Shown here: piece by piece, positions 2,077-43,290 of the stretch
Position numbering within the stretch: position 1 is the stretch's first letter
Layout: the number at the start of each line of letters is the position of its first letter
NCBI RefSeq assembly: GCF_020921035.1
Contig: NC_063155.1
Coordinates: 23,677,294 to 23,741,293, forward strand
Direction of reading: 5' to 3'
Length of the DNA: 64,000 bases
DNA from: Rhodamnia argentea
Taxonomy: Eukaryota; Streptophyta; Magnoliopsida; Myrtales; Myrtaceae
Notes under the pieces: generated by a model
What the model was told of the DNA's origin: nothing
The model's database searches: none
What the model saw: the letters and a program-made list of their open reading frames with translations, nothing else
Translations under genes and position numbers: made by a program

Positions 2077-3216
2077 TTAATTTTCATCCATTTGTGAAGA
2101 GCTTTCATGGCCGTTCGCCTGCGTTGCTGATGAGGATGATGGAGAATTGCCTCCGCCGGATTGAGATCCCGACGATGAAAACAAGCCACTGAAAGGCCAT
2201 GGAAGGGAAAACCTCCTGCTATTTCCACTTCTTTCATCGTCATTCCCATCTTCACCACTTTCATGACCATTTTCGCTCTCTCTCTCCCTCTGCCTCCTGT
2301 TGTTGACATTTCTAGACCCATCAGAGTCGAGCTTGGACTCATCAGCAGGCAACTGATATCGGCAAACAGGACAAGAGCTATGAAGTTCTAACCAAGGCAA
2401 TATGCACCCACAATGGAACTTATGCTTACATGGCATTTCCTTTGCTTCCGCTCCAATCTCAAAGTCATCCAAACAAACGGAGCATTGTAAGTTCTCCTTG
2501 ATTGTTACAGTGGGCATCGATTCCACTGCCTCTTTCTGTGCCGGTGGAGTCCCATACCTGTTGGGATCATTTTCTGCCAGATGCTGCAATAACAAATCTA
2601 AACCGGGGCCTATGAAATAATCACCAAGTGAACCAACAGTGTTCTCATTCCGCGTTGAATCATAGGATGAACCCTGAACAATGATAGTTTGATTAAAAGG
2701 ATTGATAAAGATTACCCGCTCTTGTTCCCTATCCCTATCCCTATCCCTATCTCTGTCCCTCTCTCCATCTTCTCTGTCTACGTCTCTATTTCGGTTTGCA
2801 TCGTCAGATTCCGCAGCAATTCCAGCTCTAATGCCTTGCAACAATTGCAAAATAGTAGCGGAGCTTCTCCTCCTCCTCCGGATTATGGATTCAATTTCCC
2901 GGTCCAATTCTGTTTCTCCCTCATGCCGCGATTCGCCATCTTCGTTGTCATCATCCTCGTCATCAAACTCCAAACGTCTTGATATTCGGCGGCGATGGGG
3001 ATGGCCCATCATGCCGAGCAAGATCGGGGCCCAAAGAGAGAGCGCTCGATCTGATCCCAAGTCCAAATCATGTCCCTGACTGTCCCCCGTGCCAGCCCCC
3101 ATTTCCTCAATGAAACCGCTATCGCAAATCGGGCATTTGATCTCAACTTCCATGATGGGGTCTACCGTCTGAGAGCACATATGGCACCAATATCTTGTTG
3201 CCACTGGTTCTTCCAT
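2077..3216 (-). CDS. Zinc-ribbon + RING-H2 E3 ubiquitin ligase (RNF126/BCA2-like, AtCRT1 group)
   Basis: A single coding exon of 379 residues. Near the N-terminus a four-cysteine zinc ribbon (C11, C14, C28, C31 in WCHMC...KCPIC) is typical of the plant RNF126-like ligases. A RING-H2 follows at about residues 245-285 with all ligands present: C245, C248, C263, H265, H268, C271, C282, C285. This module recruits an E2 enzyme and transfers ubiquitin to substrates. Between them lie an acidic run (about 84-96) and an Arg-Asp repeat (about 145-166) encoded by a hexanucleotide repeat. The tail is Ser/Gly-rich. The start is the first ATG (MEEPVATRYW); an in-frame GTG four codons upstream is not needed. 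A leader intron is likely, because a good acceptor lies about 40 bases upstream of the ATG. Substrate is unknown. Confidence 0.9.
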   Translation of the reverse strand: MEEPVATRYWCHMCSQTVDPIMEVEIKCPICDSGFIEEMGAGTGDSQGHDLDLGSDRALSLWAPILLGMMGHPHRRRISRRLEFDDEDDDNEDGESRHEGETELDREIESIIRRRRRSSATILQLLQGIRAGIAAESDDANRNRDVDREDGERDRDRDRDRDREQERVIFINPFNQTIIVQGSSYDSTRNENTVGSLGDYFIGPGLDLLLQHLAENDPNRYGTPPAQKEAVESMPTVTIKENLQCSVCLDDFEIGAEAKEMPCKHKFHCGCILPWLELHSSCPVCRYQLPADESKLDSDGSRNVNNRRQRERESENGHESGEDGNDDERSGNSRRFSLPWPFSGLFSSSGSQSGGGNSPSSSSATQANGHESSSQMDEN

Positions 3217-4200
3217 TTTCTTTTTCACAACTTTCCCCCTTCAGAAGCTTTCTTTCTGCAACATTTTAAAACGGGGGAAATGAACATAGACCGTCTGGAA
3301 ACTGTATAAAATTGGAAAATAACAAAGAAACCACCTCATCTCAAACAAAGGGCTATGGTTCACAATCACAATACTAAGCAGATCTGGCACGTTAAGGTGC
3401 CACATCGAAATTCCTTACTTTCCCAAAAGATGGTTTCTCACCCAATTCCACCACCCAGAAGAAAGAAACTTAATATACAGTTAGAACAATCACTGATCAA
3501 ATACATCAGGAGCATACGATGATCATCTAAGAGATGAAAACAAGGAACCCATTTGACATCTACCTTAAGAAAAAGAGAGCAACAAACAAAGACGGAGAAT
3601 CTCTCCAAGGAAAATGACAAAATCAAAAAGCTCTTGGCTTACCAACAGAGATGAAACAAGGGCTCCAACAAACGTTCAAACCCGAGCTCCAGAAATACCC
3701 ACCAACACAAACTCAAGACCAACTCGTAAATCGCGAAATTTCTCCGTTCTAGAAAGTAATCCTAGGCCATCGTGCTAGCTTCGAGGGCAAAATGGGTAGG
3801 TGAAAGCCCCTGCAATAAATTCAGAAGAATCTGGAAGCCTCATAAACAGTGAACCAAAACCAACCACAGAAAGGTATAAATGGCATGAAAAATCAGGAGA
3901 AGAAGAAGAAAGAGCAGATTTGACACGCAACCTTAAATATTCAAGAACTCCCTTGGCTATTACCATCATCATCATTATCTTTATTATTTTAAGCAAACAG
4001 AGCATTGCTGGGTATGCAGAGAAAAGTCTATTTCAAGTCAAGAACGAAAGAGAAGAAAAATGAAACAGCACCCAAAATTTTTGCCGGAGAATCTGTGGAT
4101 TTTCGGTTGCAACCAAAGTTCCGATGGCGAAGAAGCAACGAAAGTGAAATGTCCTTCAGAAATTGCCGATGGCTCAAGATTCTCTCCCTCTCTATGGCGG

Positions 4201-6920: not shown

Positions 6921-9615
6921 TCACGTCTTGATTAATGAGCTATCATTCTGGGGCTTGTTGGTTAAACTTTCAACCTGTAAAACAATCTTCATTCACAACA
7001 TACTCGGACAATATGTACCTTTCAAAACATCGAAATTCAAAATAAAACATTCATGGCTGAGTAACAATAATTTCTGTCCTTCAGAAGGGTAAACAACTAT
7101 AAGAAGTTACCACATACCAGGTTCACAAAGATTACACACAGGTAGGCATGCACATGCACACCCGCACATGCGCACAGTTAAAACATGGCCTCAGGCTGAC
7201 AATGTAGGTAGTTGACGATATGGCAAAACACAGTTATTAAGACAATTCCACAAAATAATCCACAACATTTCAAACTCTATGAAGTGAAGTAGGAGCATAG
7301 CGTTCAGTATACTGATCCCCAGAATCAGAACGATGAAAAATCCATAGAGAGAGTTCAGAGAAGTGTAGAGACCCACAATTTCTGCTCCATCAGCAACAGT
7401 GCCAATCACCAAATCTAAGTGTACAAACATTGATGATCCAGCACAACATGTCATCAAGAATTGCGGATTAAGAGCATTCCAGTAGACAGAAGACAACATA
7501 GAGATTTCTAACCATGGAAATTTTTCCAAGCCAGCAAATATTTCTCTTGGAAAGCAATAAGTCAACAATAACTTCATGCACGAACAGCCTTTGTCGATCC
7601 AGAGAAATGCAACAGACATCTCACATAGAAGCATCCAAGCAGAGAGAGAGAGAGTGCGCATGTGATAGAGAGAAAAACAAGCAATAAAGTTTGTCAAAAA
7701 ACACTTCACCCCATGTGAGAATCCATTATCTCGCCTATCTTCAAAAAGAGATGAAAAATAAGCAGGATCATATATGGAGCCTCCTAAGACATCGTCAGAA
7801 TCTGACAATCGTCCAACTGCTGCAGGAGTCACGGGACTTAGAAAGCTATTTCTCAAATCAAAATCTGGCTCTTGAGAAGCCACAGTTTCTGAAGATGAAA
7901 CCCCTAGCCTGTAAATCTGGATCCATATGAATGAGGAAGATAGCCTCACAGAAAACCCAACAATTTGCATCGCCAGGGTAAGCCTCACTGAAAAGATTAC
8001 AAACACGCCATAACTTTCAGATGAGATGTTCCTGCCAAAAAAGGGGGAAAAAGTTTTTAAGTCTGGGGGACGATTGAACAAAAACAAAATTTCACAAAGA
8101 CGTATAGAGTATGTAGTTCCACTAGATACAAAGTTGTGCATGAACACACTGTCTTGGCGATTGCTACTCAAGCAATGCCAAATTTAAAGGGGTCTAACAT
8201 TGACAGAAATGAGAAAAAATAATCCAGTCCATTGTCTTGGGCAACCTATCAGGATAAAATACAAAACTGACTTTATTTGACTTTCCCTGCTTGTCACCAA
8301 TGAGTCTTTAACTTCCACTTTGGCTAAGAGAAAGAAAAGAAGAATAGGGAGTGAGAAGAGCTTAAGATGAATGGTAAACTTAAGGCATACTGAGCATCGA
8401 AAAGGACATTAGCACCATGTTAGTAAAAACAAATGCAAGTGCAAAGGAGGTGCACAGCATTGCTCTAAAGTATTGTGGATGTGAAGCATGACAAGTGACT
8501 TCCACTTGTGTAAATAATGGACAGGCTGGCACATATATTGTGAAACTTCCTCCTGTTTTAGTAGGGATGTATGTCGACTTTCCCAAAGTTAATCCATCTC
8601 AGATGGTACTAATAAAAAGGTTCCAGTCATGTCAAGAACACTTTGAGACCCTATTCAGGAAGAAGCATAAGTAAGCTTATTGGGCAGGAGTCTACTAAAA
8701 GTGAGATCTAGTATTGTCGAATGGAATAATTTCATAAACCATGAGTTCACTGACAACTCATTCCAGGTGCAGGGGAATATAAGAGCCTTGCAAAATTGTA
8801 TGTTGCAACAGATAGAAATTAAGCAACATCCTTACAAGTTTAGCCCGTAAGAGTTTGCAGACTGTTATCAAGAGATTCATATTAAGCGACAGCAACCAAG
8901 CACAAATTAGTCCTGTAAGAATTAATAGAGAGATCCTACCTCTGTAACATTCTACGTTGCCATAATATCTTACAGACTAATTTGCAAACAAAATTCAGGA
9001 ATACATCAAAAGACATGGCCATCAATCTGTTCATTTGCTGATGGAATTCGTTAAACCCTTGAAGAGAAAATTCAACTGAGAAGTAGAACGAGTGCACTGA
9101 AATTCCTATACTTAAAAGGCCATAACATCCATTGGGGCTAGGAATTCGACCATTTTGACCACTCTAAGCAGTTACTATCCTGGATGGATCATATAATGTG
9201 AACAACCGATCTAAATCATCGTACGCACTCACCATATATCGTGGGTGAAGAGTATAAACCAGAGGACATCAAGGAGGATGGCACAGACGAGAAGCACGGC
9301 GTAGGTTCGGCCCAGACTCTGGCTGCTACTTTCAATCGCGACAAGCGCGAAGAGCGCAATCGCCAAATTTATGAGCAACACCCCATTGTACAATGCCCCC
9401 AGGGACCCGATCAGCGCACAAGCAATCTACAACGAAACACGCAAACCGAAATTTCACCGGCGAGTACTAAGCAAAAGAAGCAATCGAAGACGCACGAGCC
9501 CTAGGGCTAGAGGTTTTACCTGGATGTAAATGAAAATGACGGCCAAGCCCTGAAGTCTGTCGTAATCACGAAGCCACTGCTGCACTCGAGCTCCCAAGGA
9601 GCAACAACGCATCAT
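6921..9615 (-). CDS. Multi-pass membrane protein of unknown function (plant-conserved), 4 exons, 221 aa
   Basis: Exons in transcript order: 9520-9615, 9233-9426, 7710-8031, 6921-6974 (complement); phases agree and the total is 666 nt. The start is the first of two adjacent ATGs. Hydrophobic segments lie at about residues 22-44, 48-64, 74-93 and 105-125, so four or five membrane passes are likely, with a short cytosolic N-terminus (WLRDYDRLQG). Notable conserved-looking pieces are SSSQSLGRTYAVLL, LDVLWFILFTHDIW and RLTLAMQIVGFSVRLSSSF. The tail (140-221) is polar and carries DFDLRNSFLSP and LGGSIYDPAY. I recognise the sequence as a widespread plant protein without an experimental function. A distant likeness to animal AGTRAP (angiotensin receptor-associated protein) is possible but only an impression. 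The last exon is short (17 codons) and the least certain part. Confidence 0.78.
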
Positions 9616-12600
9616 ATGCCCAACGAGATGCACTCCCAAACTTCACGCGCGGCGGTCGAATCTTCACCGCAAGCACATGAATCCCGGAGGTTCCTCCTAG
9701 CGAGGAAGGAAGGAAGGAAGGAAGGAAGATATTGGAATTCCGAACAGAGGGAAGCGACGAGAGATGGGGGGGCCGATCGAGGACGGCGCTGCAACGGCGT
9801 GACCGGGAACGCACGAAAGACTAGCTCGAACGAGGAAGTGAGGGGGACAGCGGTTTCGAGCAATGCAGACAGAGCAATATAAAGAGCATCGACATGTCCA
9901 GTGTGCAAACTGACCGCGCATCTGGCGTGGGGGAACTCGAACGAGGAAGACGATTGGTCTGGTTTACTCTCCTTTTTTTAGCTTTGCGGTTCCGAAACAA
10001 CCAACTTTTTTCATTTTATTTTGCAATACTTCTCGATTTTTTTTTTTTTTTGGGGGAAAAATAAGAACAAAAATAAGGAATGGACCCTACGGATGATAAA
10101 ACTAATTAGTTTACGATAAATCTTCTCCGGCAATTGAAATACACAACATGCGATTATGCAATGGAAAAATCCGATCCAATTTGTTAGGAAAGAGGATATT
10201 TTTATAGACTACTCGATGACTACTTCGAATGAATTTATTAGAGGCATATTAAGAGTATTTTAAATATAATGATATCGAATTTTTTTTTTTTTTTGCAATT
10301 AATTATTTTTCTTTGGACCAAATTGTACAGCTCCTCACTAAGCATCCGTTTTAATTTTATATAATTCTCTGTAATTTTACACGGAGATGGTGAGATGCTT
10401 GTCAACTGCCGAGTGTGTAAGGCAAGCAAACATAAATTACACCGTTATGATTTCCGTAATCAAAGTAAATGCTAGATTAAGTGACACTTGCTCTGGCTCG
10501 CCCTTCAAAACAGCCAATGACCCGTCCCCAACCTAAAAAAAAAAATCATTTGGGAACTTTAATGAACGACCGAAGTAAAATAAAGTTTTTTCTTTCAAAA
10601 AGGATTACTATTATTATTATCCTTTTTCAGAAAAGGGAAATTTTGGGGGTGAGCTGAGCTGAGCTGAGCTGGACGTACAGAAGTAAAAAGAAAGAGGGGG
10701 GAGAGTCCCGACACGTGACGTTCATGAAGAGGCCGGTTGGCTTTTGACCGCCGGGCTGACCAGTAGGTCCATCATCACCGTCGCTAGGTGGGCCCGGGGG
10801 GCGACCAACCCGGCCTGCGCTCGGTCAATGACCAACGAGCACCTGGACACGACTTGCCCTTTTGTCTGAAAACGTTTGTTCAATACGAAACGTTTAAGAT
10901 TTCAAAACTTCGTAACTGTTGAGCCGTCTCATCGAGTATACCATTCTTGTATTTTTTTCTGAAATCTTAGCAGCCCATTTGTCGGCTCGACGAGGGACAT
11001 AGGCGTCCCGAGCAGTTCTGATCTGAATACAAGGCCCTCCGATTTCAGTTTTGCAAGCCCAGTTCAAAAAGCCCAGCTATGGAATATAGTTAGATGGATT
11101 CTTGGACCGACGTACATCGCTTGGCCCTTTACCCTTTTCTTTACCCAGACCAATTTAGATTTGTTCGATCCAGGGGCAGAGACGTGGAAACTGTGGGCTA
11201 CCTAGAGGCCCATGAAATAAACATGCAAGTCTCATTAACCAGTTCCGTTTAGGACCATTTTTTTGGTTAAAGGTTTAGGACCTTAATATGTAGAAATAAG
11301 CCTCACCCAGAGTAGTTTGCTTGCATTTAGTGAGATTTAAACGGACGACCTCCAGTTCCTAAGCTAGAAATCCTTTACTTTGGAAAGATCTCGGCGAGAT
11401 CATCCTACCTCTTCACATGTTAGCATCGCGCGCAATGAAAACTAATGTGCATGTAAGTGTTTCTACTGGTCCATATAAGCTAGGAGGATGACGTGCAAGG
11501 TTCTAAACTCACTTTATCTGATGAAGAAATTGGATGTTGAAGTGGCACGATTGTCATGATCACTGTGCTACGCCTGCGAACTTCATCAGGTATTTTGATT
11601 GAATGGTTGGTTCATCCACCACACGATCCACCAAACTATGTTTTTTTGGCGAAGTACATTAATCTTTTTCCTAGATTGGCCTTCTTCGGATCAATCTATA
11701 AACCAGTAGGTAGTTTTCGAGATTTCTGTGATTCCATGAACATTTAGGTGTCCTTGTCTTCTTTCTCCTAGATTGGCCTTGCCAGTAACTTAGCATTACT
11801 GACTTCTATCTTCTTTTTTCCTAAACATCGGATTACCGGGACGACCAATTCTAGTTTCATCAATAATTGACAGGATCTCTTGCTTGGAAGGAAAAAAAAA
11901 AAAAATGAAGTCATTTTCTGCTGGAACTGAAGAAAGAAGATGCTACATTCCTGGGATTCCAGGACTGAACATGTGAGAAAAATGTAGCATGTTCTCGCTC
12001 CTTTGGTCGCCGTACTTAAGAAAGCAGACAATGTCATGTGATATATTGCAGCTTATTATGTTAATACGAATATCGACTTTCCCTTTTCGATTTCTGCTGC
12101 ATTTACAGTCATCTGCCATCACAGACGCCTTGTGACTGAGATTAGAATTTTTTTTTCCTTCCTTTGAAAAGGGCAAACTCTTCTCTGCAAATATCAAGAC
12201 CACTTGCGCACAAGCACATGGCCCTCAGAGGCAATTTAATTCTCTCTGCTACACACAAGGGAAAATTTACTATCTCTTCACATGTGCGAGCGTGCATCCC
12301 TGCGTAGCTGAACTCGCCTAACACGCCACGGATGTGCAGCAACTTAGAGAGCGAGCGCTTTGGTCATCTATAGAAACAGTGTTTGTTTGTCGTCTTAATT
12401 AATCAGACGCCCTAGAAAGACTGATCAACTTTCAAAGCTGCGTAAACAAGCCAGAATTATTACTTGGTATGTTGGATTCGCGCTCCGCTCGCCCGCTGCC
12501 TGATCCGTGTTCGCGATGGCGGACCTAGGCTAGGCCGGTTTGTCTTGCCGGCAAGTTGCTGCCCCCTCCTGATCCCAAGGCGTTCTTGTATGACTTTAAT

Positions 12601-14197
12601 CAGCAATTCTGTATGCTCCGATTAGTAGATGGATTTCGCTTAAGTTGTAGCTGTTTATCCATTCCCTTGGGATCACATTTATACTCATTCTCTGGAGTCT
12701 TTGCTCTCCCCCATAACCTCATTTTTACCCTCACCATGTATCTTAATACACATTACATTCAAGATGCTTACTTTCTCAGTCACTCACTCACTGATATGAT
12801 ACGCGTCCATCTGCTTATCTCGAAACAACGCGTTGGACACGGCGAGAGCGAGGACCTTTTCCTAGTCCTAACGTCAGTGAAAACAAGATTCGCTCCTGCT
12901 CCTGCTCCTGCTCCATTATCTGTATTTGCCCCCATCTCTCCGTGTTTTGCAAAGATTATTTTTTTAATGACTTCCCCTTCTTTGCAAACCCTTCATGTCG
13001 CTTAGAACTCCCAAGGGTCCTGTGGAGATATTTGTGCACGTGAACTGCATTATTTCTGCACTTTCCAAAAGACTACCCACGACCGGTACAGACCATATCG
13101 CCATCGAAATCCTCAACTCTTTCCACGTAATGTCCTTCCTTTTTTGAATGTCCCTAGTAATTGCCAGACAGTGACCCCGAGAATTGACCCTAAACCTTAC
13201 TATTCCTTCCTTGTTAACATAATATTTGTGTTAAAGGGTCACGGACATGAGAAGTCATTACAGCTTGTTTCGGTTTTGTTCAAAGCTAAAATGAACGGTC
13301 GAGCATCCGGTCAAGCAAATGGACTTTCCTTTGTGAGGTACACATCAGGATCTCTCTCTCTCTCTCTCTGCATGCATGTGGCTTTCTTTTTGAGCGTTAA
13401 TGACTCAGTACTTATCAGAAATCGTCTCTTGTGGCTTTTATCAGTCGTGTCTTACAGTGTAAGGTGTGTCGAGAACTTTAAGATAGGACAGAAGACATAG
13501 AGAGAGAGAGAGAGAGAGAGTTGAGGATAGAAGAGGGAACCTTATCCCCTACTGTACCAACTGTATATTTTATTGGGCCATGCTTGGATATGGATCTTTC
13601 TAGCAGCAGCTGTCTTCTTCGAACCTCGACTCCAGTAAAATGCCTCCATTTCTACCCTTTTTAAGCTGATTTTATTTGGATTTAGATCACCTACATTGAG
13701 ATTTCTACTACATACTTACCATTACTCAAATCAAGCTATCCAAATAAAAATGAATTTCCTGATTTGAGAGAGGGTTGGGATTGAAAATTTTTCAAACTCC
13801 AAAAAAATTTCCGCCCAATTTTTTTCCTTCCCCCTCAGCAAATGACATGGCCTATTCTTGGCCGTCCATTTTCATTTGGACGGCCTGATTTAAATAATGG
13901 TAAGCATGTCACGTAAACCCCAATATCAGGTGATCCAGATCCGTTTTATTTAGTGTGGCAGACCAATGTCCCTTCAATGCTCCCCCCTAATCTTCTTCTA
14001 AGCTCCAACTCCGGTTCTCCGCTTCTTCCTTTGTTTTGTGCTGTGATATGTGGTTGATCTGGGCTTTAACATTTCGGATCTTTAGGGTTATTCTTTCGGT
14101 GGCTCCATGGTCCCGTCTTATGTTTATCACATAAATACTAGGTGATTAGCCTCCCTTTTTATAAATACAATTACTTTTAAGTAAAGGGTATGTCGTA

Positions 14198-14256
<59 letters not shown>

Positions 14257-14648
14257 GTTGTTGTTGTTGTCGTCGTCGTCGTCGTCGTCTTTTTTTCACC
14301 CACATACATCAATTTCAACCTTAGCTATGGTACTTCTCTCTTTTATTTTTACAGTTGTGACTCCTCTAAAGTCACGGTGTTGTTATCGTTCGGGTCGTCA
14401 TATAAAGACTCAAGTGGCCTCCCTTTTCTCTTCCAATGTTGACCCTCCATCCATAGCAAGACAGAAAACCCTAGTTAGCATCGTTCCTAAATCAACCATA
14501 AAGAAAAGAAGAGAGAAAAAAAAAAGGGAAAAGGGGTTGTTTACCCTTTATATTTAAGGGCTTGTACTTGGAACCTTGATGAGCTTGTGGTTGCGGCTAC
14601 GAATGAGAGCTTCTTCTTCTTCTCATGGAGAGGAAAATGATTGGTTCC

Positions 14649-14681
<33 letters not shown>

Positions 14682-14699
14682 ATGTATGGCATTGCGTGT
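9616..14699. other. Gene-free region: promoter side of the membrane-protein gene, then non-coding DNA
   Basis: The first kilobase upstream of the membrane-protein ATG is probably its promoter. It has a (GGAA)n run near 9707-9727, and a GC-rich patch at 10700-10860 with a CACGTGAC G-box and several W-box cores (TTTTGACC, GGTCAATGACC), plus a (GAGCT)n run near 10652-10672. Further on there are CT/AG microsatellites (about 13352-13368 and 13499-13521). Open frames such as 12556-13005 have no domain, no codon-use signal I can judge, and no splice partners. Part of 14.4-14.7 kb is likely the 5' portion of the MIR169 transcript. Confidence 0.5.
14204..14290. repeat. Compound trinucleotide microsatellite ATT-GTT-GTC
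   Basis: About 53 bases of (TTA)n run directly into (TTG)n at 14257 and then (TCG)n at about 14270-14290. Each block differs from the previous one by one base, so it looks like two point mutations, each followed by its own expansion. Confidence 0.95.
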
Positions 14700-14720
14700 A
14701 GGTGTCGAAAGCACGTTGTG

Positions 14721-14741
14721 CAGCCAAGGATGACTTGCCGA
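14721..14741 (+). ncRNA. miR169: Mature miR169 (5p)
   Basis: 5' arm of the hairpin; identical over 21 nt to the miR169a guide as recalled. Confidence 0.92.
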
Positions 14742-14814
14742 CTCTCTTTCTTCTTCTTTACTTGGATTGGATCTCTCTCTCCGTGTGTGTTGAATTAATG
14801 GAAATTTTGAAGTT

Positions 14815-14835
14815 GGCAAGTTGTTCTTGGCTACA
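14815..14835 (+). ncRNA. miR169* (3p)
   Basis: 3' arm strand that pairs with 14721-14741 leaving 2-nt 3' overhangs at both ends. Confidence 0.88.
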
Positions 14836-14850
14836 TACTTCTTTCAGCTC

Positions 14851-17800
14851 CACATGCCAGGCCATTGGTGATAACTCACGGTCACAGATGAATCGCCGAA
14901 TCCGAATTCCGATCCATTTTTCGCGCGCCCGTGATTGCTCGAGAGGTATGTTCTCGTTTGGATTCATTTCATGGTTCGTTCAGGTTGATTCTGAAAATAG
15001 GATGTTTCATCGCACTACTGCTCGTTTCCTTAAGCTCGCCCTTGGCCCCCTTGATGCACATGTTTGATCACTAGCAATCTCGGTTCACGAGAAGATTGAC
15101 TCTTGTCAGTATATTATCTACCTCAATCTGTAACTTCAGATACACCACTTTCAAGATCCGTGAAGCGAAAACCAAACTCAGAATGCGGGAGAAAAAGATA
15201 TCATGATGTGAGTCGATTATTCCTTGCATCATAGGTGTTGCTGCGTCTTGCAGCCGATACTCCTCGGGAGGGTGAGATACCAAGCAAAACTCCCATCTGA
15301 TACTACTAGTTTGATAAAGGAATACCTTTTGTCTGAACTACCTTGATTCAAAAGTCACCGACCTTGTTTAAGAATGAATGTGCTTATTGAGTTATCGAGA
15401 GGTATGTGGAGATCGATTGCTTATGAATTGCTAACATTCTCCAAGGCAGTGCAATACATAGCCGGTGAAGAAGAAAGAATGAGTTCATCTTCTCCCAGTT
15501 CCCTCTCCATCGTTGTGTGTGTCGACTGTCGACTCATCCATTAATTGTGGTGCTTACTTCTGATTAAGTACACTTGTGGATCACTCGCTGCCATATCATC
15601 TGCGGCCAACTATAGATTCTCGTCCAAACTGTGTTTATTTACCGGCGAGTCAAATGGTTTTGAGACATTGTATTTAAATCCTGAAGATATATTTCATTCT
15701 TTTGTCAATCACCAGGTCAGGTCCCTTGTGTCCCCAGTTCTTGGTCCAGAACGGGTATTATTGCTAATTGGGGAACCTGGACTTAGTAGAGAATTGGGTT
15801 TACGAACATTGTCGATCGTCGACGAAGAGAAAATGCAGCATCCAATCATCTTCTTTCTCATCTATCGGCGTCAGATTGGTTCGGACATTATTGAACATTG
15901 TTAGACTGCTTTCTGTGTTGTAAATAGTTTTGCTGATTATGAGTGAAGAAGGAAATAGCCTACAACATGTTTGTAACTTACTACACTGGCTAAGATAACT
16001 CGAGAAGGGCCCTTTTTTGCTAGGACCTCTCAACAGAAAAGTAATTTTCAAGAGATCAAATTGTCCACTATGAAAAGAGTTAATTGTCTTCAGAAATGGG
16101 GTGAGAGAATAGGCAAAAGCCGAGGCTGGACTGCATTGCTAGTTCAGATCTCATACTTTAAGATCTACTGTTGAGAATGATGTTTCCCTTTACAAGCAAT
16201 CACGCAATTTATGCGATCATCTGTTGAATCTCTCTGCCTGTGTTGTAGAGAGTTCATTTCTTGTGGATATCTGGTGCATGATCACATGTCTTCTCGCGTT
16301 TTCTTCTGCTTAGTCTCGGTTTTATCACAGGAGCAATGATCGAGTAGGTCTAAAACCATCGACCCATCTATTCATACTTTATGCCCGCATCTCTCGAAAG
16401 ATTTGTTATGTTGAGATCTACCATTCAAGATCGTCGTGTTTAGCCAACGAAAAACAACTTTGATTAGCACCTCGAGCATTAAAGAGACGGTCTTATTATG
16501 ACGAGCAGTGACTTCCTTTTGGAGGTAATCACCAAAAGCTTGGATTAAGGAAAGAGAATTAACAGTGATAGTATTGCCTACAAAACCTTTTCTTCTTACC
16601 AGAGCTGATTTAAGCCTCCTTTCATTCTAAATTTCTTATTTTGTACCACGTGTCGGGCCATGATTCATGAATTTGTCGTATGTGGTTCTTGCTTTCTCAA
16701 GTGGGCCTTGTCCATTTGCCTGCTGGCCTCACTGCCCACTTGGCCCAACCTATTTCCCCCCCTTTTTTCTTCCTCCTTATTTATTTATTTATTTATTTAT
16801 TTTCCTTTGTCCCTTTTGGCGTAGGATCTCAAATGTGTACTCTTCTATCTATGGAGCACAAATAATTGTCCTCAGTATTTGAATGGTCCAAAGTAAGCCT
16901 ACCGAAGAGATGACGTGGATAAAAAAATGTACTCTTCGCCGGATTCGGGGCGGGCTTGCGAGTTATTATTTGGCGGAATGCGACGTACCTTATCTGATCG
17001 GCTAATATCATCGATTACTGAGCATTATTTTGATGGCCTACTAATTCTCGATGCTACAATGGATGAAGTGCTAAGTTTCAATGCTTCTTGGGATTGGATT
17101 TGCTGTATTCAATAGAACCGAATATTAAAGCTTAGGATTGCACTTGTCTGACGTAAGATTAACGACTTTAGGTATAGACGAAAATTATTGTCGTCATGAA
17201 AAACGTTTAGCATCAATTATATTTTAAGCAACATAAATAATTATTTTTAAGAAATAATTCTTGTTTGCGGAATAAATGATGTCTTAACTTTTAAGTGTTG
17301 TCAAGTCTCAAACAAAATATGTTTGTCGTTATTTGGAGAATTATACGAAAAAGAACTAGCTTTGCATGTGTCATCATTTTATTCAAAAGTAGAGTTGTTA
17401 GGAGGATGCCGGTGAAGCAAAGGAAGCACACAGGAGTCATCAATTAGCTTACGTAACTCTTGATGATTAAAGTTCATAATCATCTTTGTAGGCATCATTA
17501 TAGAATAAAAATAAGTAAAGTCATTGTTAAGAGATAACTCCATATTATAACACATAGTTCCAGGAAAATTGTCTAGTTAGCATTACGCTTGTTTTATCTG
17601 TCAATTTAATCATAAACATTTACGCCTCATTGCAATGTAGTCATGTAACGATGTGCTACGTAAGACCGTTGGAGATGACTGGATAGTCATGTCAACGATT
17701 TTTTGGTCAAATCGACCAAAAGAATTATATTGAAATTTCATGCAACGGTATTCTACAGTGAAGCCGAATATGGTTACCTTGTTTGGTTTTCTTTTTTCTT

Positions 17801-23800: not shown

Positions 23801-26220
23801 GCCGCATGATAACATGGCTTCTCTCTTGCTGTCTTGATTTGGATATTGCTGCATCATAATATACCTGTGTCTCTCGGCATTTAGGGGAGGATTCCAAAAC
23901 GCTGATGCTGGTGCATGTGAGCCCAAAAGAGGAAGATCTCTGTGAGACAATATGTACATTAGGTTTTGCAGCAAGAGCGAGAAGCATCCACCTGGGAACT
24001 GAAGACTCTATAGTAAGCAAAGAAGATCCTGACTCTTTTCATTCTGGAAGTTTTTTAAGTTAAAGGTGGAAAAAAGACAGTCAATTGTTGGGAAGTGCTC
24101 GCTTCCCTTGATGTCTCTCATAAAAGATGTAGGATAATACGAAAACAAGAATTAGAGAGAGTATCATAGATCTCACTGAAGAAGTCTCAGCAAAATGTAG
24201 ACGAAGAAAAAATACCAGACTAATCAGATGATCAGGACATGCTGCTAAGGTAGATCTTGCATGTAGAAAAAGGGAAAAGTTAAGCAGGCATGTTTCTGAC
24301 ATTGGAGCTGTAGCAGTATGAAATTAAGCAGAAGGATAAAGAGGTTACACCTACTATAGTAACTAGGTATCCTGGCGAATTGACAGCATAAAAACATCCA
24401 GTACGAGTTACCCGCTTGGCACCATTAGCAGACAATCGCCAGTTTGACACGTAGAGACAACCATTCAATTGTTGCCTTATCATTTGATTCTAAGATAGAT
24501 GCAACTGTTTCTCCCGTTGCAATATCCATAGGGCTTCAGTGGGTACTATTCTTGACTTTGAAAACCTCTCTCTTTATCTAACTACCGATGTTAACTGCCG
24601 CAAATCAGGAAAGTGCACGTAAGGAAGCTGCAATGCAAAGCCTGCAGGAAACTATGGTAAAGATTGAAGATGAGCGTCAAAGAGTAAGCAGAAAGATTAA
24701 AGAGTTAACGAGAAAGTTAGAAAATCTAACAGGGACATCACCTTCCTATAACCACTCAACTGCTGAAGAGCCTGAGTTCGATTTTGGCACCACCAAGCAA
24801 AAAGCCAAAGATGTGAGAGCAGCACCTCTATCTAAACTACCACGATTTATGAGGCCAACTATATGCAGCCAAAGAAAATCAGGGACTGAGCACCAAATTT
24901 CCGAGGGGAAGCACCTTGGCCAAACAAAAAGAAGAAGGGCTCCATCTCAACGTGCAGGGTCTGTGAATTTCCCCATGAAGAGTCACTCAGATTTCAAGTC
25001 TGATTGCAGTATTTCCAGAGCCAGTTGCCTGGTCGACTTGGATACCATGTGCAATGCAGATACTGAGACAGAATACAGTCATGACATGACTGAATGCGAT
25101 GTCAAAGTAGTCGTACTCTCAGAGGAGAGAAGCTTCCTGATGACGACTGATGGAAAGGCACAGTTAGACCATGAAATGGTTCTTCCTAGCATTGACAGCA
25201 AATTCTATTCCACAGAAATTCTAGAGGTCGCTGATGGGCTGAATTCGCAGAATGTGATAAGTGCTGCTGGTGGTTATAAGAGTAAACGGGTTCCAGCTGT
25301 TCCTCTTCCCCCGAAGTTCAGGCACAATGGACAGAGTAATGCGGGTGTATCGTGCCTTGAAAGATCAGATGCAGAGAATTCTCCATCGAAAGGCCACATA
25401 GACATTCGGGAATATGAGGAAGAAAGTCAGAAAAGCTACTCTGCAAGCTCAACATCTGAAGCGGAAATTGATGAACTCATTACCTATTCAACTGGTTTTA
25501 CGGATGCACACTCTGAAACTCGTTGCAGAACTCCATCCTTAACAAATGAATCTATGATATGTACAAAACATAGCATTGATGCCTTGATGATACTGGACGA
25601 TGACAGTATCGATTATCAACGTCCACATGATGCTGTGTGTGGTAGACTAAACCAGAACAGTAGTGATGGAAGAGTTGATCAATTGCCCCCCATGGATGGT
25701 GTAAAGAGTGAAACCCACAGTTTGGAGGCTTCCCCACATCAAGAACATAGAGAATATTGTTTTTCTCTGGTTGGATCTCTTATTGATCAAGAAAAAGAAC
25801 TTGGGGTCAGTACATCAAACTGTAACTTGGAACCTGACAACTATAATGCGTCATTTGGATGGACTAGAGGAGATACCAAAAGGGCTGGCTTGTTTGAAAA
25901 ATCAGCAGCAGGAAGACAACATGACATGCTCAGATTGAAACACCAACGCACTCTATTCAAAGACAATGCCGGTCATAATAATGTGGACAATGGCTTGAAA
26001 TTGATTGCAGCAGAGGGATATACACAAAATACAGGTATGGTAGTTTGCCCAGATATTTGTTTCACGTCTCATGCTTGTAATCCCTTCTCTCTAACTTTTG
26101 ACAGGCATGTTTCATCTCCTCCAAGAGAAGTTTTGGAATCTATATTTTACCGCTCTTCTAGGACTCGGACTCCAAAACCTTGGATTTGAGCATGAATTTT
26201 TCGATGGTTTGACTCTCTAG
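20833..26220 (+). CDS. Kinesin-14 family motor protein, 11 exons, 972 aa
   Basis: Exons: 20833-21127, 21221-21304, 21413-21580, 21728-21834, 22144-22322, 22459-22620, 22870-23085, 23524-23561, 23885-24012, 24609-26034, 26105-26220; total 2919 nt with phases matching throughout. A short N-terminal region and helical neck (about residues 95-126) precede the motor, the order seen in minus-end-directed kinesin-14s. Motor landmarks: [12 protein letters not shown]-loop GQTGTGKT, switch I SSRSH, switch II DLGGSER (usual form DLAGSER) and [17 protein letters not shown] coiled coil follows ([12 protein letters not shown]... [20 protein letters not shown]), then a long Ser-rich tail and a hydrophobic end ([16 protein letters not shown]). 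ATG 20833 has an in-frame stop 36 bases upstream, but an upstream exon cannot be excluded. Likely role: microtubule-based organisation of spindle, division plane or organelles; cargo unknown. Confidence 0.88.
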
Positions 26221-28081: not shown

Positions 28082-29947
28082 TTAGATGGTGTAAGGCTTG
28101 GGCATGGGCAGACCTGCGACGGCACCGCAGAGCTGGAAGTTGTCGGGGATGTTGTACTCGTCCCTCAGAGACTTCTCGGGCGAGAGGACGCTAATGTAAA
28201 GCTCTTGCCCCAGGTAACGCCTCTCGGCCAGCTCAGACCTCAGGTTCCACATCCCAGCGTTGTCGAAGGTCAACATGATCGCAGCCCAGGATTTGGGGAA
28301 AACCTGGATGGTGTGCCTGCTCACAGCGTCAAGGAGGTTGTAGCTCTTCCTCTTCTCCGGGGTCCACCTCCCCGGCTCGATCCTGGCACACATCAAACAT
28401 CCAGAGTTAATAAGTTGTAGGACATGTCTAGGAAAAATCTAGGACGTCACCTGGAGAGATGCAACGTATCCTGGGAAAGTTTTTTTTGGTGTTATGGGAC
28501 TTACGCAACGGCGAAGAAGGAGTAGCCATCGAGGTGCCAGGACTGGATGCTCTTCTCATGGTTCTCCAGGATGATCTCGACGAAGGTCCTGAAGGTGACA
28601 TTCAACACGTTGGGGGCGAGAGTGACCAGGGAAGCCTTCTCGACCAAGGGCTCATCGGGGATGATGTCGTACTTGAAGACCTTGTCGGCAACACCAAAGT
28701 ACTCAGCGAGCTTCAGTGGGGTTGGGGGGTTGACATGGGAGACGCCATTGATGCCGTAGCGGAGCTTGCCACCGACACTGCTGGCCGAGCTGACGAGCTT
28801 GATGGTGCGGGTGATGTTGATCTGGCCGTAGTGGTAGGACCCCTGGGGGTTGGGGCGGGCAGCGCTGGCAGTCAGGTTCCACCGGAAGGAACGGAACTGG
28901 TTCAGAGACCAGGCCCAGCCATCGGGGGCAGCGGGGAGGACAGTGGAGGCCGGGATGCCATTGCCGTTGGTATAGCGGATGATCCCGGTGGATGTGACCA
29001 CGCTCTTTGTGAACCGGGTCGAGGCTACCATGAGGTAGTCCCGGGGAGCCTTGTCAGCGGTGATGAGCACAGAGTAGCATTGGCCAACATGGACATCAAG
29101 GGAGTCGTAGGTGTTCTGGACGGTGTGTGATCCTTCCATCTCGACGAGCTTCATCGGGTGGTCCTGGATCCTGAAGTTGAGGGAATTCTTGAGGCCAACG
29201 TTGCAGATCCGGTACTTGTAGGTCTTTCCAGGCTTCATGGTGAACAGGGGCTTGACATTCTTGCCCTTGCCTGTTTGGCCGTTGATGAGGACACCATCGG
29301 GCCTGCCAAGAGGGCGGCCGGTGTCCAGGAACTTCCTGAGAGCAGTGTGGCTCTTGGAGTACCAGTCACCAATGAGGACAGTGTAATCGTCCTCAGGATC
29401 GGCATAAGGGACAGGGATGAGCAAACGGCTGTTCACACGGAGGCCACCGAAGCCACCAGCCGCACGGTGCACTGCCGTGGTTGGGTAGTAGAAGTAGCTA
29501 CCGATCTGATCCTTGACCTGGAAGTGGTAGGTATAGTTCGTTCCTGGCAGGATCGGGCAGTTGGTTCCTAGAACTCCATCTTGCCACGAGTTCTTCCTTT
29601 GCTGGATTCCATTCCTGACAACAACAGCAACAAAGTTTAGCCCAATCTCGAAACTAAGAAAAACAGGGGAAAAAAACATGAGCAGGCTAATGATTTCCTC
29701 GTTACCAGGTGAAGAGAAGGGGCTCGTCAATATTGTTGAAGATGTTTATGACAATGTTGTTGTTGCTGGTGGAGTTGATGTTGGGGCCGGGGAATTGGCC
29801 GTTGATGAGGATGCCTTGCTGAGGGACTCCTAGCGGAGAGATGGTGCCGTAGGTGACGTTCCAGGTGAAGAAGAAGTAGGGGTCTTCACCACGGACCGCC
29901 ACGGCCCCGGCCAAGAGGCATAGAAGCAGAATTGTCGCTCTTTCCAT
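28082..29947 (-). CDS. SKU5-similar / L-ascorbate oxidase homologue (Bp10 pollen type), copy 1, 550 aa
   Basis: Exons (complement, transcript order): 29706-29947, 28505-29614, 28082-28382; 1653 nt. A signal peptide at residues 1-20 (RATILLLCLLAGAVAVRG, then EDPYFFF) sends it to the secretory pathway. Three cupredoxin domains of the multicopper-oxidase fold follow: about 23-140, 150-300 and 360-530 (PKSWAAIMLTFDNAGMWNLRSE near the end). The copper-binding motifs of true ascorbate oxidase (HWHG, HCH...H...M) are absent: only TAVHRAAGG and SWHLDGYSF remain. The protein probably acts in the cell wall without oxidase activity, as for SKU5/SKS proteins. No GPI tail: it ends PKPYTI. Many NxT/S sites suggest glycosylation. 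Intron positions and phases are the same as in the divergent copy at 35975-37856. Close family members are pollen-expressed; expression here is inference. Confidence 0.92.
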
Positions 29948-35974: not shown

Positions 35975-37856
35975 ATGGGTGGAGTGATGTTACTGCTGTT
36001 AGTATGCCTCTCGGCCGGGGCTATGGTGACCTGGGCCGAAGACCCATACTTGTTCTTCACGTGGAACGTCACTTATGGCACCATCTCTCCTCTGGGCGTC
36101 CCCCAGCAAGGCATTCTCATCAACGGCGAATTCCCCGGACCGAATATCAACTCCACCACCAACAACAACATCGTCATCAACGTGTTCAACAATCTCGACG
36201 AGCCATTCCTCCTCACCTGGTAAATCTTCTGATACACCGCAAATGCATTCCTCCGTATGCTAAGCAAAATGGTGGCGCATCGTTAAGCACGCTGCTTTGC
36301 ACATGTTTACACGCGCGGCATCTTTTGTTTGTTTTTCAGGAATGGCATTCAGCAAAGGAAGAATTCGTGGCAAGATGGCACGCTCGGAGCCAATTGCCCA
36401 ATCCCTCCAGGACAGAATTATACATACCGCTTCCAAGTTAAGGACCAGATTGGGAGCTACTCCTATTACCCGACCACCGCCATGCACAGGGCAGCTGGTG
36501 GATTCGGTGGCCTCCGCGTGAACAGCCGTTTGCTGATTCCTGTCCCCTATGCTGACCCTGAGGATGATTACACCGTCCTCATCGGAGACTGGTACTCCAA
36601 GAGCCACACCACACTCCAGAAGTTTCTGGACAGTGGCAGAGCCCTCGGCAGACCCGATGGAGTGCTCATCAATGGCAAATCCGACAAGGGCAAGGGCAAG
36701 GGCAAGGAAGAGCCTCTCTTCACCATGAAGCCAGGGAAGACGTACAAATACAGGATTTGCAACGTCGGTCTCAAGAATTCCCTCAACTTCAGGATCCAAG
36801 GCCACCCGATGAAGCTTGTTGAGATGGAGGGGTCCCACACGATCCAGAACTCCTACGACTCCCTCGATGTGCACGTTGGGCAATGCTTTGCCGCCCTTGT
36901 CACAGCTGATAAAGAGCCAAAGGACTACTACATGGTAGCCTCAACTCGATACACCAAGACTGTGCTCACCACCACAGCTGTTATCAGCTACACTAATGGC
37001 AAAGGTCCTGCTTCACCCATCCTTCCCGAGGCTCCCGTGGGCTGGGCTTGGACCCTCAATCAGTTCCGCTCCTTCCGCTGGAATCTCACAGCCAGTGCTG
37101 CCAGGCCTAACCCTCAGGGTTCCTACCACTACGGACAGATAAACATTACTCGCACCATCAAGCTTGTTAACTCAGCCAGCAGGGAGGGAGGCAAGCTTCG
37201 TTACGCCATAAACGGAGTCTCACACACAGACCCTGCAACCCCACTAAAGCTCGCAGAATATTATGGAATTGCAGACAAGGTCTTCAAGTATGATACCATT
37301 TCTGATGATGCACCAGCAACAGATTCGGACAAGATAACTGTGGAACCAAACGTGGCCAACGTCACTTTCCGCACTTTCGTGGAGATCATTTTCGAAAACC
37401 ATGAGAAGAGCATCCAATCATGGCATCTTGACGGATATTCCTTCTTTGCAGTTGCGTAAGTATCTGCCTCCATGTCCTTTTGTTTATAGGCACAATTGCA
37501 ACTGCGCTATTAAGCGAGTAATAATGTCAGCAATCTTTTTGGAACCATTCAACAGAGTTGAGCCAGGAAGGTGGACTCCAGAAAAGAGAAAGAACTACAA
37601 TCTCCTTGATGCAGTGAGCAGGCACACAATCCAGGTCTTCCCTAAATCATGGGCAGCCATCATGTTGACATTTGATAATGCCGGCATGTGGAACTTGAGG
37701 TCGGAGTTGGCAGAGAGGCACTACCTGGGCCAACAGCTTTATATTAGTGTTCTTTCCCCTGAGCGATCTCTCCGAGATGAGTACAATATCCCTGACAATG
37801 CCCTGCTCTGCGGCGTTGTCAAGGACCTGCCAAAACCTCCACCTTACTCCATCTAA
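35975..37856 (+). CDS. SKU5-similar / L-ascorbate oxidase homologue (Bp10 pollen type), copy 2, 553 aa
   Basis: Exons: 35975-36219, 36340-37455, 37556-37856; 1662 nt. Signal peptide about residues 1-21 (MLLLLVCLSAGAMVTWA, then EDPYLFF). Three cupredoxin domains, and the same loss of copper ligands as copy 1 (AMHRAAGG; SWHLDGYSF; no HCH motif). Both introns sit at the same codons and phase as in copy 1 (after LLTW and inside FFAVAVEP), and long blocks are identical in protein sequence (for example FRSFRWNLTASAARPNPQGS), so the two genes arose by duplication and inversion. A Lys-Gly repeat (KGKGKGKEE, about residues 192-200) distinguishes this copy. It ends PKPPPYSI without a GPI signal. Predicted role: secreted wall protein in tip growth or pollen; no oxidase activity expected. 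Confidence 0.93.
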
Positions 37857-40017: not shown

Positions 40018-41912
40018 TCAATACAACAGACGATGCACCCCTCGCCTCACCCATAACTGGTAAGCAGTCATGTAAAAGGAATCGAAACCTCTCGGTGTTG
40101 TGTGCCACATGAAGTGTTTTCTTACTTGGGACAGATTATGGTACATGCTGAGGTAAATTTCTGCCGGTATAGCCAATAGTCTTTCCTTCAAGGACGATAT
40201 CTCCCTATGGTTGATAATGACGGAGAACTTGCTCCAGTCCAAGATGTTAGAAAATGGAAGGTCATAGTAATTTGAAAGAATAACAGGAACACAACCATAA
40301 TGTATAGCGTCACAGACCCTCGCTGTGTTCACCTCATAACCTTTCACATGGAGGCAATATCTGCTTCCCTTGAGACCTTCTTCGTAAGGAAAAGGACTTC
40401 TAGAAAAAACATCCATGGACGTATCGTTTTCATACGTGTCTATCAACTCTTGGCGAATGCGAGAGTTTTGGATGCGCCCCGAAAAGAAAACAAGTCGGTG
40501 CCTACAAAAGGACCCAGAGGATACATCGGTTCTGAAGCCCACAGCATCATAATAAAATTGCTGAAAGGAAAAGAAAATGAGCAGTCTCTAATCAACCATG
40601 GTACAAGGATAGATTCGAGCTGTTCTAAGATTATGGGTGGGTACAGGAAGGGAATAGCCAAAACTTTTATCCACTGTAAGAAATTGATGAAGTTGTTGGT
40701 TGGGGTACTTAGTTGACTCATCCACTTCAACTAACTCTTGTAATTGACCAGAAATTTCACGCACATCTTTCTCATGAAGCAACTGGGCGACTAAACAAGA
40801 CAACTTCACCAGGCAGAACAACAACAACATATTTGAAATGATCGTCTCTTACAATCCTCAAAAGAAATTCTAAAATAGAATCCAAATCAACCTCCTAAAG
40901 AAGCCTAGCATGTGAAATCCACGAATCAGTAGATAAAAATTGATGATTCATAACAAATTTCACGGACAAGACTACACAGACCTATGCAGCAACAAAAATG
41001 TGGACGCCCACAATCATACCTTTCACTCGGAGGGGTCAGAACCTGCTCATCTCTCCTCGGCCAGACTTGCGGAAGCGCCACGTCCTTATGTGCCACATAA
41101 GACCTCTGGAAATAGCTCGATGAACAAGTGACCTGAACCGCATGGTTGAGCAAATCGCGGTGCTTAGATGCCGCGTCCCTGCCGACAGAGTGGCAGTGTG
41201 CGTAGAAGTGATCAGCTCCCCCCGACGCATTCCAGAACCCGAACTCCCGGCCGATCCTCGCGGCGTACTCAGCGACGAAGTCCGCTATCGTCCCCTCGTG
41301 ACGCACCCGAGGGTCGTTCCGCATGTTGTTGATCGAAAAGGGCATGAAAAAGAATTGAGCTTGCTGGGGATCGGAGGTGACGAGCGAGCTCCGAAGGAGA
41401 GAGATCTTGAACATGTGCTCGCTGAAGTAGTTGCCAAGCTTGGGGTTAAAAGGGTCGACGTGGGGCAAGAAAATGTTGGCAAACGGAGAAGAAGAAGACG
41501 AAGAGGACGAGTAATAAGCGTCTGGGTAAACGTAAATCTTGAAGGAACGCATCATTTCTTGAAAATTAGCAGCGAAAGCCAGCCAGTCGTGATAGGGACC
41601 AAAATCTCTCTCCTTTTTCGGCGGAGACAAAGCATCTGCACTGGAAGATGCAGAGGTGGGAGCTGGAGAGGTCAGGTTCGCGAAGGGAGAGTGAGGTTGC
41701 GATCTCAGAGACGAGCTCTGAGCTCTTGGAGATTCGGCTGTGACTGTGACCGACAGTGGATCCGGGTGGAGAGATGGGTGGACGTGCTTGGAGCCGGAGA
41801 AGGAGAAGGAGAGGTAAAGGATAGATGCGAGAGTGAAGGTGCTCAGCAAGATGAGGAGCTTGTGATGGAGAGGTTGGTGGTGGTGCTTGGTTCTCTTGGT
41901 GAGCATGAACAT
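40018..41912 (-). CDS. GT47 exostosin-family glycosyltransferase, 2 exons, 458 aa
   Basis: Exons (complement, transcript order): 41020-41912 and 40018-40501; 1377 nt. Type II membrane topology: short basic N-terminus, one membrane segment at about residues 19-38 (LLILLSTFTLASILYLSF), a Ser/Pro-rich stem, then the exostosin domain from about residue 118 (FKIYVYPDAYY) to the end. Landmarks: FFMPFSINNMR, GADHFYAHCHSVG, KDVALPQVWPRR, HRLVFFSGRIQNSRIR, CLHVKGYEVNTARVCDAIHYGCVPVILSNYYDLPF. The last one lies in the nucleotide-sugar-binding half. Golgi-located GT47 enzymes of this plant clade build wall polysaccharides; donor and acceptor cannot be told from sequence. The ATG at 41912 is the first in frame: an in-frame stop precedes it with no other ATG. 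An in-frame TTG upstream is not used. An alternative exon-2 acceptor near 40547 would shift the frame and is rejected. Confidence 0.9.
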
Positions 41913-43290
41913 GGTGGTGACTGGCAAGAAGTGTCCAGCGAACTGCTCGTCAAGAACAACAGGGTAGCGTGCGTTGGAGAAGAAGGAGAGAACACAATTA
42001 ATCGGACAAGGCTATAAATTGTGAGATTGCCGCTTTCATTGTCCTTTTTACTTGTCTTTTTTTTTTTTTTTTTGGTCGAATTTCTTGCCTTTGTTCTTGT
42101 TTGTTTTGGCGCATTGAGTGCGTCCTTCTCCTTACTGAGTAACTGCAGGCCCAACTGAATGTTGTGCTTCATAGGTTTGATCTAGGGGCGAGTAAAAAAA
42201 TCATTAATCCATCCAAATAGAACCGGACCATACTCAACCGACTGATTTTGGATGATAACAGACAGGTAAGGTCCGGTTCCCAGGCCCAATTTCCTGGAAC
42301 CGGCGAGTATCGATTTGATTCTAGATTCGGGTGGGAACCATCCAACCGGCCCAACAAAATCGATCTTTTATATAATACAAATATATATTCTTTTAGAATA
42401 ACTTTTGCAAATATTACAACACTTATTACCTTACATATTGAAATTTTTTCATTTGGCAATGGTAGCATATCGTTTTCCCCATTATTATCTTGTATTATTG
42501 AAATTTTTCCTCCTTCAACTGTTGGGGATTGGTTACTTTTCTTTTTTAATTGATGTTGGTATTCGGTAACACCGTAATCGGGATCCAACCAAGAACCGAA
42601 CCGGACCGGTGGTTCGATTTTTGGGTGGATCCATGAAACAAGCGAGTGGTTCACGGTTCGCATTTTGTGGAACCGATCTCTAGCGGGCGGTTTTTAATTA
42701 CAGGGTGAAAATCATCCATTCTGGAATCGATCACTCTTAGATTGATTAAAAAAAAAATACCATTTTTCTTTGAATTGTTCTTTTCCCTCCTCTTGATAAT
42801 TAGACTGATGATCAGAAAAAGTGAGAAACAAATTTGATTGCTTGGACCCCCAGATGATGATGGAAAGAATTCTTTGCGATTTTGATGTAAAAATCGATTT
42901 TTGACATATAGTAAATAGCAAAAGCGTATAATTTTTTTCCCAAAGAAAGAGCTTTTTTTTTTCGAAATACCCGTAAAGCAGATTAAAATCGAAATACGGA
43001 GATTGGATTTGGTTGGTCCGAACAGTACGGGGCCTTCTGTCTTTTACTTCGGTTTCTCCGACCTTTTTTTAACCAATGGCTTCGCCATTAACGTCAAAGA
43101 ATCTCGACAGCTCGTCACTCTCTCTTCCCCTCGGAGAGCCCATACCCAACAAGACACCAAACAAAAGCACCGTCTTGCAGGAGCAACAGGCAATCGAGCC
43201 GAACGCGTCTGCTTCCCTTGTTCTCTTCGTCATCTCTGAACCTCGGCGAGTCCTCGATCCGCATCGCTTGAAGCAGAGATTAGGCAGCGG
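41913..43290. other. Shared upstream region of GT47 (-) and DUF1350 (+) genes
   Basis: A divergent promoter region of about 1.4 kb. Most of it is a small transposon (42183-42740). On the DUF1350 side, an upstream ATG at 43076 opens a 119-codon frame that overlaps the main start in another frame; see findings. Confidence 0.55.
42183..42740. mobile_element. GGTTCC/GGAACC-rich small element (copy B)
   Basis: It starts TAGGGGCGAGTA and ends GATCACTCTTA, with many CCGGTTCC / GGAACCGG words in the first 170 and last 170 bases and an AT-rich middle. Same family as 34625-35002 and 61677-62369. It lies 271 bases upstream of the GT47 ATG. Confidence 0.55.

Follow-up and report, generated by a model that had tools for sequence, protein, structure and literature searches.

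The question raised by this locus is whether a region of Rhodamnia argentea DNA that appears to lack genes, and that is crossed by an open reading frame, contains a microRNA gene of the miR169 family. An earlier note on this stretch of 64,000 nucleotides (the window, taken from contig NC_063155.1) placed a MIR169 gene at 14700-14850, and both covariance search and folding bear this out. When the whole window was searched with covariance models, a single Rfam match reached its gathering threshold, the MIR169_2 hairpin, and this match spans the full model (1-118). The Rfam model named MIR169 (RF03311) reaches 26.6 bits against a cut-off of 80; because RF00645 scores 67.6 bits against a threshold of 50, the hairpin was assigned to RF00645 and not to RF03311. 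When positions 14690-14860 were folded alone, as the earlier note had proposed, a stable stem was obtained with an energy of -62 kcal/mol, compared with -39.96 kcal/mol (sd 4.08) for 200 shuffled sequences, none of which folded equally well (z -5.40). Based on these results, we are nearly certain that the window carries one flowering-plant MIR169 gene of canonical form. The coordinates of its features are collected in Table 1.

Table 1. Features of the MIR169 locus (positions are those of the window).
Feature	Position	Strand	Basis or remark
Candidate TATA box TATATT	14549-14554	+	Pattern only; transcription start expected at ~14580 from its position
(CT)16.5 microsatellite directly 5' of the hairpin base	14649-14681	+	
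Whole MIR169 fold-back, including lower stem	14686-14865	+	Pairs in context folds; minimum free energy structure
Lower stem, 5' side, with interrupting mismatches and one 3x3 internal loop	14686-14720	+	Fold
Rfam RF00645 (MIR169_2) match	14710-14844	+	67.6 bits; gathering threshold 50; E-value 4.6e-17
Predicted mature miR169 (5' arm)	14721-14741	+	Identical to ath-miR169a as tabulated in PMC3602245
Upper stem and loop	14742-14814	+	Predicted fold
Predicted miR169 star (3' arm)	14815-14835	+	Identical to the rco-miR169b star and zma-miR169b-3p as listed in published tables
Lower stem, 3' side	14836-14865	+	Predicted pairing

In a plant microRNA gene, the miRNA and its star are expected to form a duplex that contains few mismatches and ends in 3' overhangs of 2 nt. 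Here, the 19 positions of the duplex comprise 15 Watson-Crick pairs, three G-U pairs (positions 9, 11 and 12) and one mismatch (C-A at position 1), with no bulge, and each strand ends in a 2-nt 3' overhang, so that the overhangs described in the earlier note are confirmed in the pairing. The positions that it gave for the mature and star strands are exact. An exact 21-mer of the miR169 kind lies on the 5' arm, and the identification of this strand with the miR169a guide agrees with the Brassica napus table of PMC3602245, in which the same 21-mer is entered as ath-miR169a.

Both strands recur among the small RNAs sequenced from other plants, and it is from the small RNAs of these species that the exact ends of the mature and star strands are taken here. 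The mature 21-mer corresponds to rco-miR169d, e and f in the castor bean tables of PMC3722108 and to mno-miR169c in the mulberry tables of PMC4131894. Similarly, the star is identical to the rco-miR169b star (PMC3722108) and to mno-miR169b, which is referenced in PMC4131894 to zma-miR169b-3p. The star reads tabulated in these sources are few (4, 1, 0, 0 and 1 in castor bean; 1, 0 and 0 in mulberry). A sugarcane small RNA listed in PMC3579473 has 20 bases in common with the star, with a shift of one base. When compared over the mature and star strands, the locus shares its mature 21-mer with ath-MIR169a, but its star is one base off the corrected ath-miR169a-3p quoted in PMC8688358, and it shares its star (21/21 bases) with castor bean rco-MIR169b and maize zma-MIR169b, while the mature rco-miR169b ends in G rather than A.

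A second MIR169 copy, or a perfect-like target, was sought in the window and rejected, as the 19-base core occurs once when up to three mismatches are allowed on both strands (chance expectation 0.01). The exact 21-mer does not occur in either the prokaryote or the viral collection; this is a weak control because only ~0.1 occurrences would be expected by chance in the prokaryote set.

Below the duplex, an interrupted stem of ~35 positions reaches down to 14686/14865; its continuation to 14681/14870 is less sure. Ten pairs were sampled in three context folds of 401-1021 nt (14580-14980, 14550-15250 and 14580-15600): nine of them, spanning 14688/14863 to 14739/14815, had a probability of 0.93-1.0 throughout, and the outermost one (14682/14869) had a probability of 0.04-0.36. 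The lower arms, taken as 14681-14720 and 14836-14870, have a pairing energy of -26.4 kcal/mol. Equally good pairing was seen in 8 of 1000 shuffles and in 13 of 1709 segments of the window with similar geometry. By itself, the pairing of the lower stem is thus suggestive, not strong.

A stem of this kind is of interest for processing. According to the degradome data presented in PMC8688358, ath-miR169b is cut sequentially from base to loop and shows a peak lying 21 nt downstream of miR169b-3p. The same work counts miR169 as one of 14 families whose processing modes are conserved. Additional small RNAs close to the base of the hairpin are described in PMC2945783 for some Arabidopsis precursors, including MIR169m. 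The locus has the long stem below the duplex that sequential base-to-loop cutting, the mode reported for ath-miR169b (PMC8688358), needs; at this locus such cutting is predicted from the stem. The lower stem is consistent with base-to-loop cutting by DCL1, perhaps sequential or perhaps in a short form. Cuts would be expected after 14835 and perhaps after 14856; if processing is sequential, the first DCL1 cut would fall at ~14856/14857.

Between 13.9 and 15.0 kb, TATA-like patterns (TATAWA or TATATW) occur at 14160, 14401 and 14549, the last of these ~140 bases upstream of the hairpin. The earlier note had proposed a start near 14590, which is close to the ~14580 expected from the 14549 site, an estimate derived from a sequence pattern. 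Its broader suggestion that 13.9-16 kb might all be primary transcript is unsupported as stated: with a start near 14580, the segment 13.9-14.55 kb would be promoter rather than transcript, although the sites at 14160 and 14401 would allow longer transcripts. Across 14.0-17.0 kb, the + strand contains no AATAAA and a single TGTAAATA, at 15919. A scan of 14.0-16.2 kb for bacterial-type promoters gave four sites against 5.4 expected, a result that is meaningless for a plant. Published work on the splicing of grapevine MIR transcripts (PMC2822795) offered nothing relevant to this locus. The candidate TATA site is flanked by two microsatellites, (TAT)20 at 14196-14256 and (CT)16.5 at 14649-14681, both of which could be used as length markers at this position.

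The hairpin is covered by open frames, as the earlier note had warned in calling the frame over it false. The larger of these, 14702-15067, is 121 aa from stop to stop, and a second + strand frame of 57 aa (14625-14798) also covers part of the hairpin. If the 121-aa frame were a protein-coding exon, the hairpin within it could be incidental. The length of the frame across the hairpin is the point in favour of this reading, but the frame has no Pfam match (E-value up to 0.01), its first ATG (14798) falls inside the hairpin, and both sequence and structure fit MIR169; we give an exon practically no chance of being the explanation. Codon usage did not discriminate: the frame scored 0.016, within a range of -0.108 to 0.274 for held-out training frames. 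Six window frames were used for training, one of which (24582-26186) has no Pfam match and was assumed to encode a kinesin tail. An equally faint prospect is that the minus strand is functional, alone or as well, as a reverse-complement microRNA. Antisense microRNAs have been reported, including the MIR169 cases in rice and maize described in PMC3479107, and the minus strand folds at -44.4 kcal/mol (z -3.27, with none of 200 shuffles equally good) and matches MIR169_2 at 43 bits. This score, however, lies below the gathering threshold of 50, whereas the plus strand combines 67.6 bits with a known mature sequence, and any hairpin gives some antisense folding.

The locus might instead be a silent or decaying MIR169 copy, correct in sequence but lacking a functional promoter or not transcribed. 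The miR169 family is large (14 members in Arabidopsis are mentioned in PMC3485258), so single copies may be dispensable. Arguing against decay are the intact hairpin, its single duplex mismatch and its stable lower stem, together with the TATA-like site ~140 bases upstream, and we regard a silent copy as very unlikely. The preferred reading is an intact, ordinary MIR169 gene, perhaps already annotated, that belongs to a common and long-known family.

Two + strand frames lie in the presumed 5' leader, at 14579-14701 (40 aa) and 14625-14798 (57 aa), and are possible miPEP candidates. Both are of low complexity, and the frame beginning at 14579 may precede the transcription start. Peptides termed miPEP169 from other plants are among those covered in the review PMC11055055. 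That the leader (for example 14579-14701 or 14625-14798) encodes a microRNA-encoded peptide which boosts transcription of the gene itself, an effect claimed for some miPEP169 peptides of other plants, seems to us very improbable.

The surroundings of the gene were examined by scanning with Pfam (E-value up to 0.01) the 90 stop-to-stop frames of at least 60 aa that overlap 8.5-24.5 kb. A kinesin motor was found in four frames and a microtubule-binding domain in one; all five lie at 21.3-24.1 kb and represent exons of a kinesin gene. The weak single matches were COX2_TM (0.0016), AChE_tetra (0.0055) and BMT (0.009), the last of which lies at 22.1 kb on the strand opposite to the kinesin frames and is under its cut-off. 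As the weak COX2_TM match is the only one among the 54 frames at 9.8-20.0 kb, the region described in the earlier note as apparently empty is indeed empty of confident known domains. Overlapping frames on both strands at 9202-9977 and 10630-10866 are among the most coding-like of 64 (codon usage 0.208-0.312). Three frames at 9202-9977, scanned singly, had no Pfam match, and those at 10630-10866 were scanned within the 54-frame set, where one frame had a weak match. Three further RNA candidates from 8-24 kb were set aside because they score far under their cut-offs: a MIR2118-like match over the CT repeat (28.5 bits against 85), a snoR66-like match (24.8 against 43) and an STnc550-like match (21.9 against 48). 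A tRNA scan found none.

Pfam scanning of 10 long frames, out of 58 listed, left five with no match. The other five comprise one RING-finger frame on the minus strand (2077-3240), a multicopper oxidase on each strand (28501-29745, minus, and 36287-37459, plus) and two minus-strand frames of a GT47 exostosin-like protein (40018-42011). The multicopper oxidase frames are similar, in opposite orientation and ~6.5 kb apart, and are likely a duplicated pair.

In other plants, a set of regulators of stress and growth is tuned by miR169. Specifically, Arabidopsis NF-YA transcripts are stated in PMC3485258 to be lowered by miR169, and cleavage of an NF-YA mRNA by rice miR169 is noted in PMC2670843. 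By analogy, NF-YA regulation is expected for the miR169 of the Rhodamnia locus. RNA polymerase II would make the primary transcript, probably from ~14580, and DCL1 would process the hairpin in the base-to-loop direction, releasing the mature/star duplex that is seen in the sequence and predicted fold. If the gene behaves like the rest of its family, the 5'-arm strand would then enter an AGO1-type complex and, once loaded, cut the mRNAs of NF-YA transcription factors. Knowledge of miR169 itself is unchanged by this locus; what it contributes is one well-placed regulatory RNA gene to the description of the genome, and it flags a hairpin at which gene prediction could introduce a false exon.
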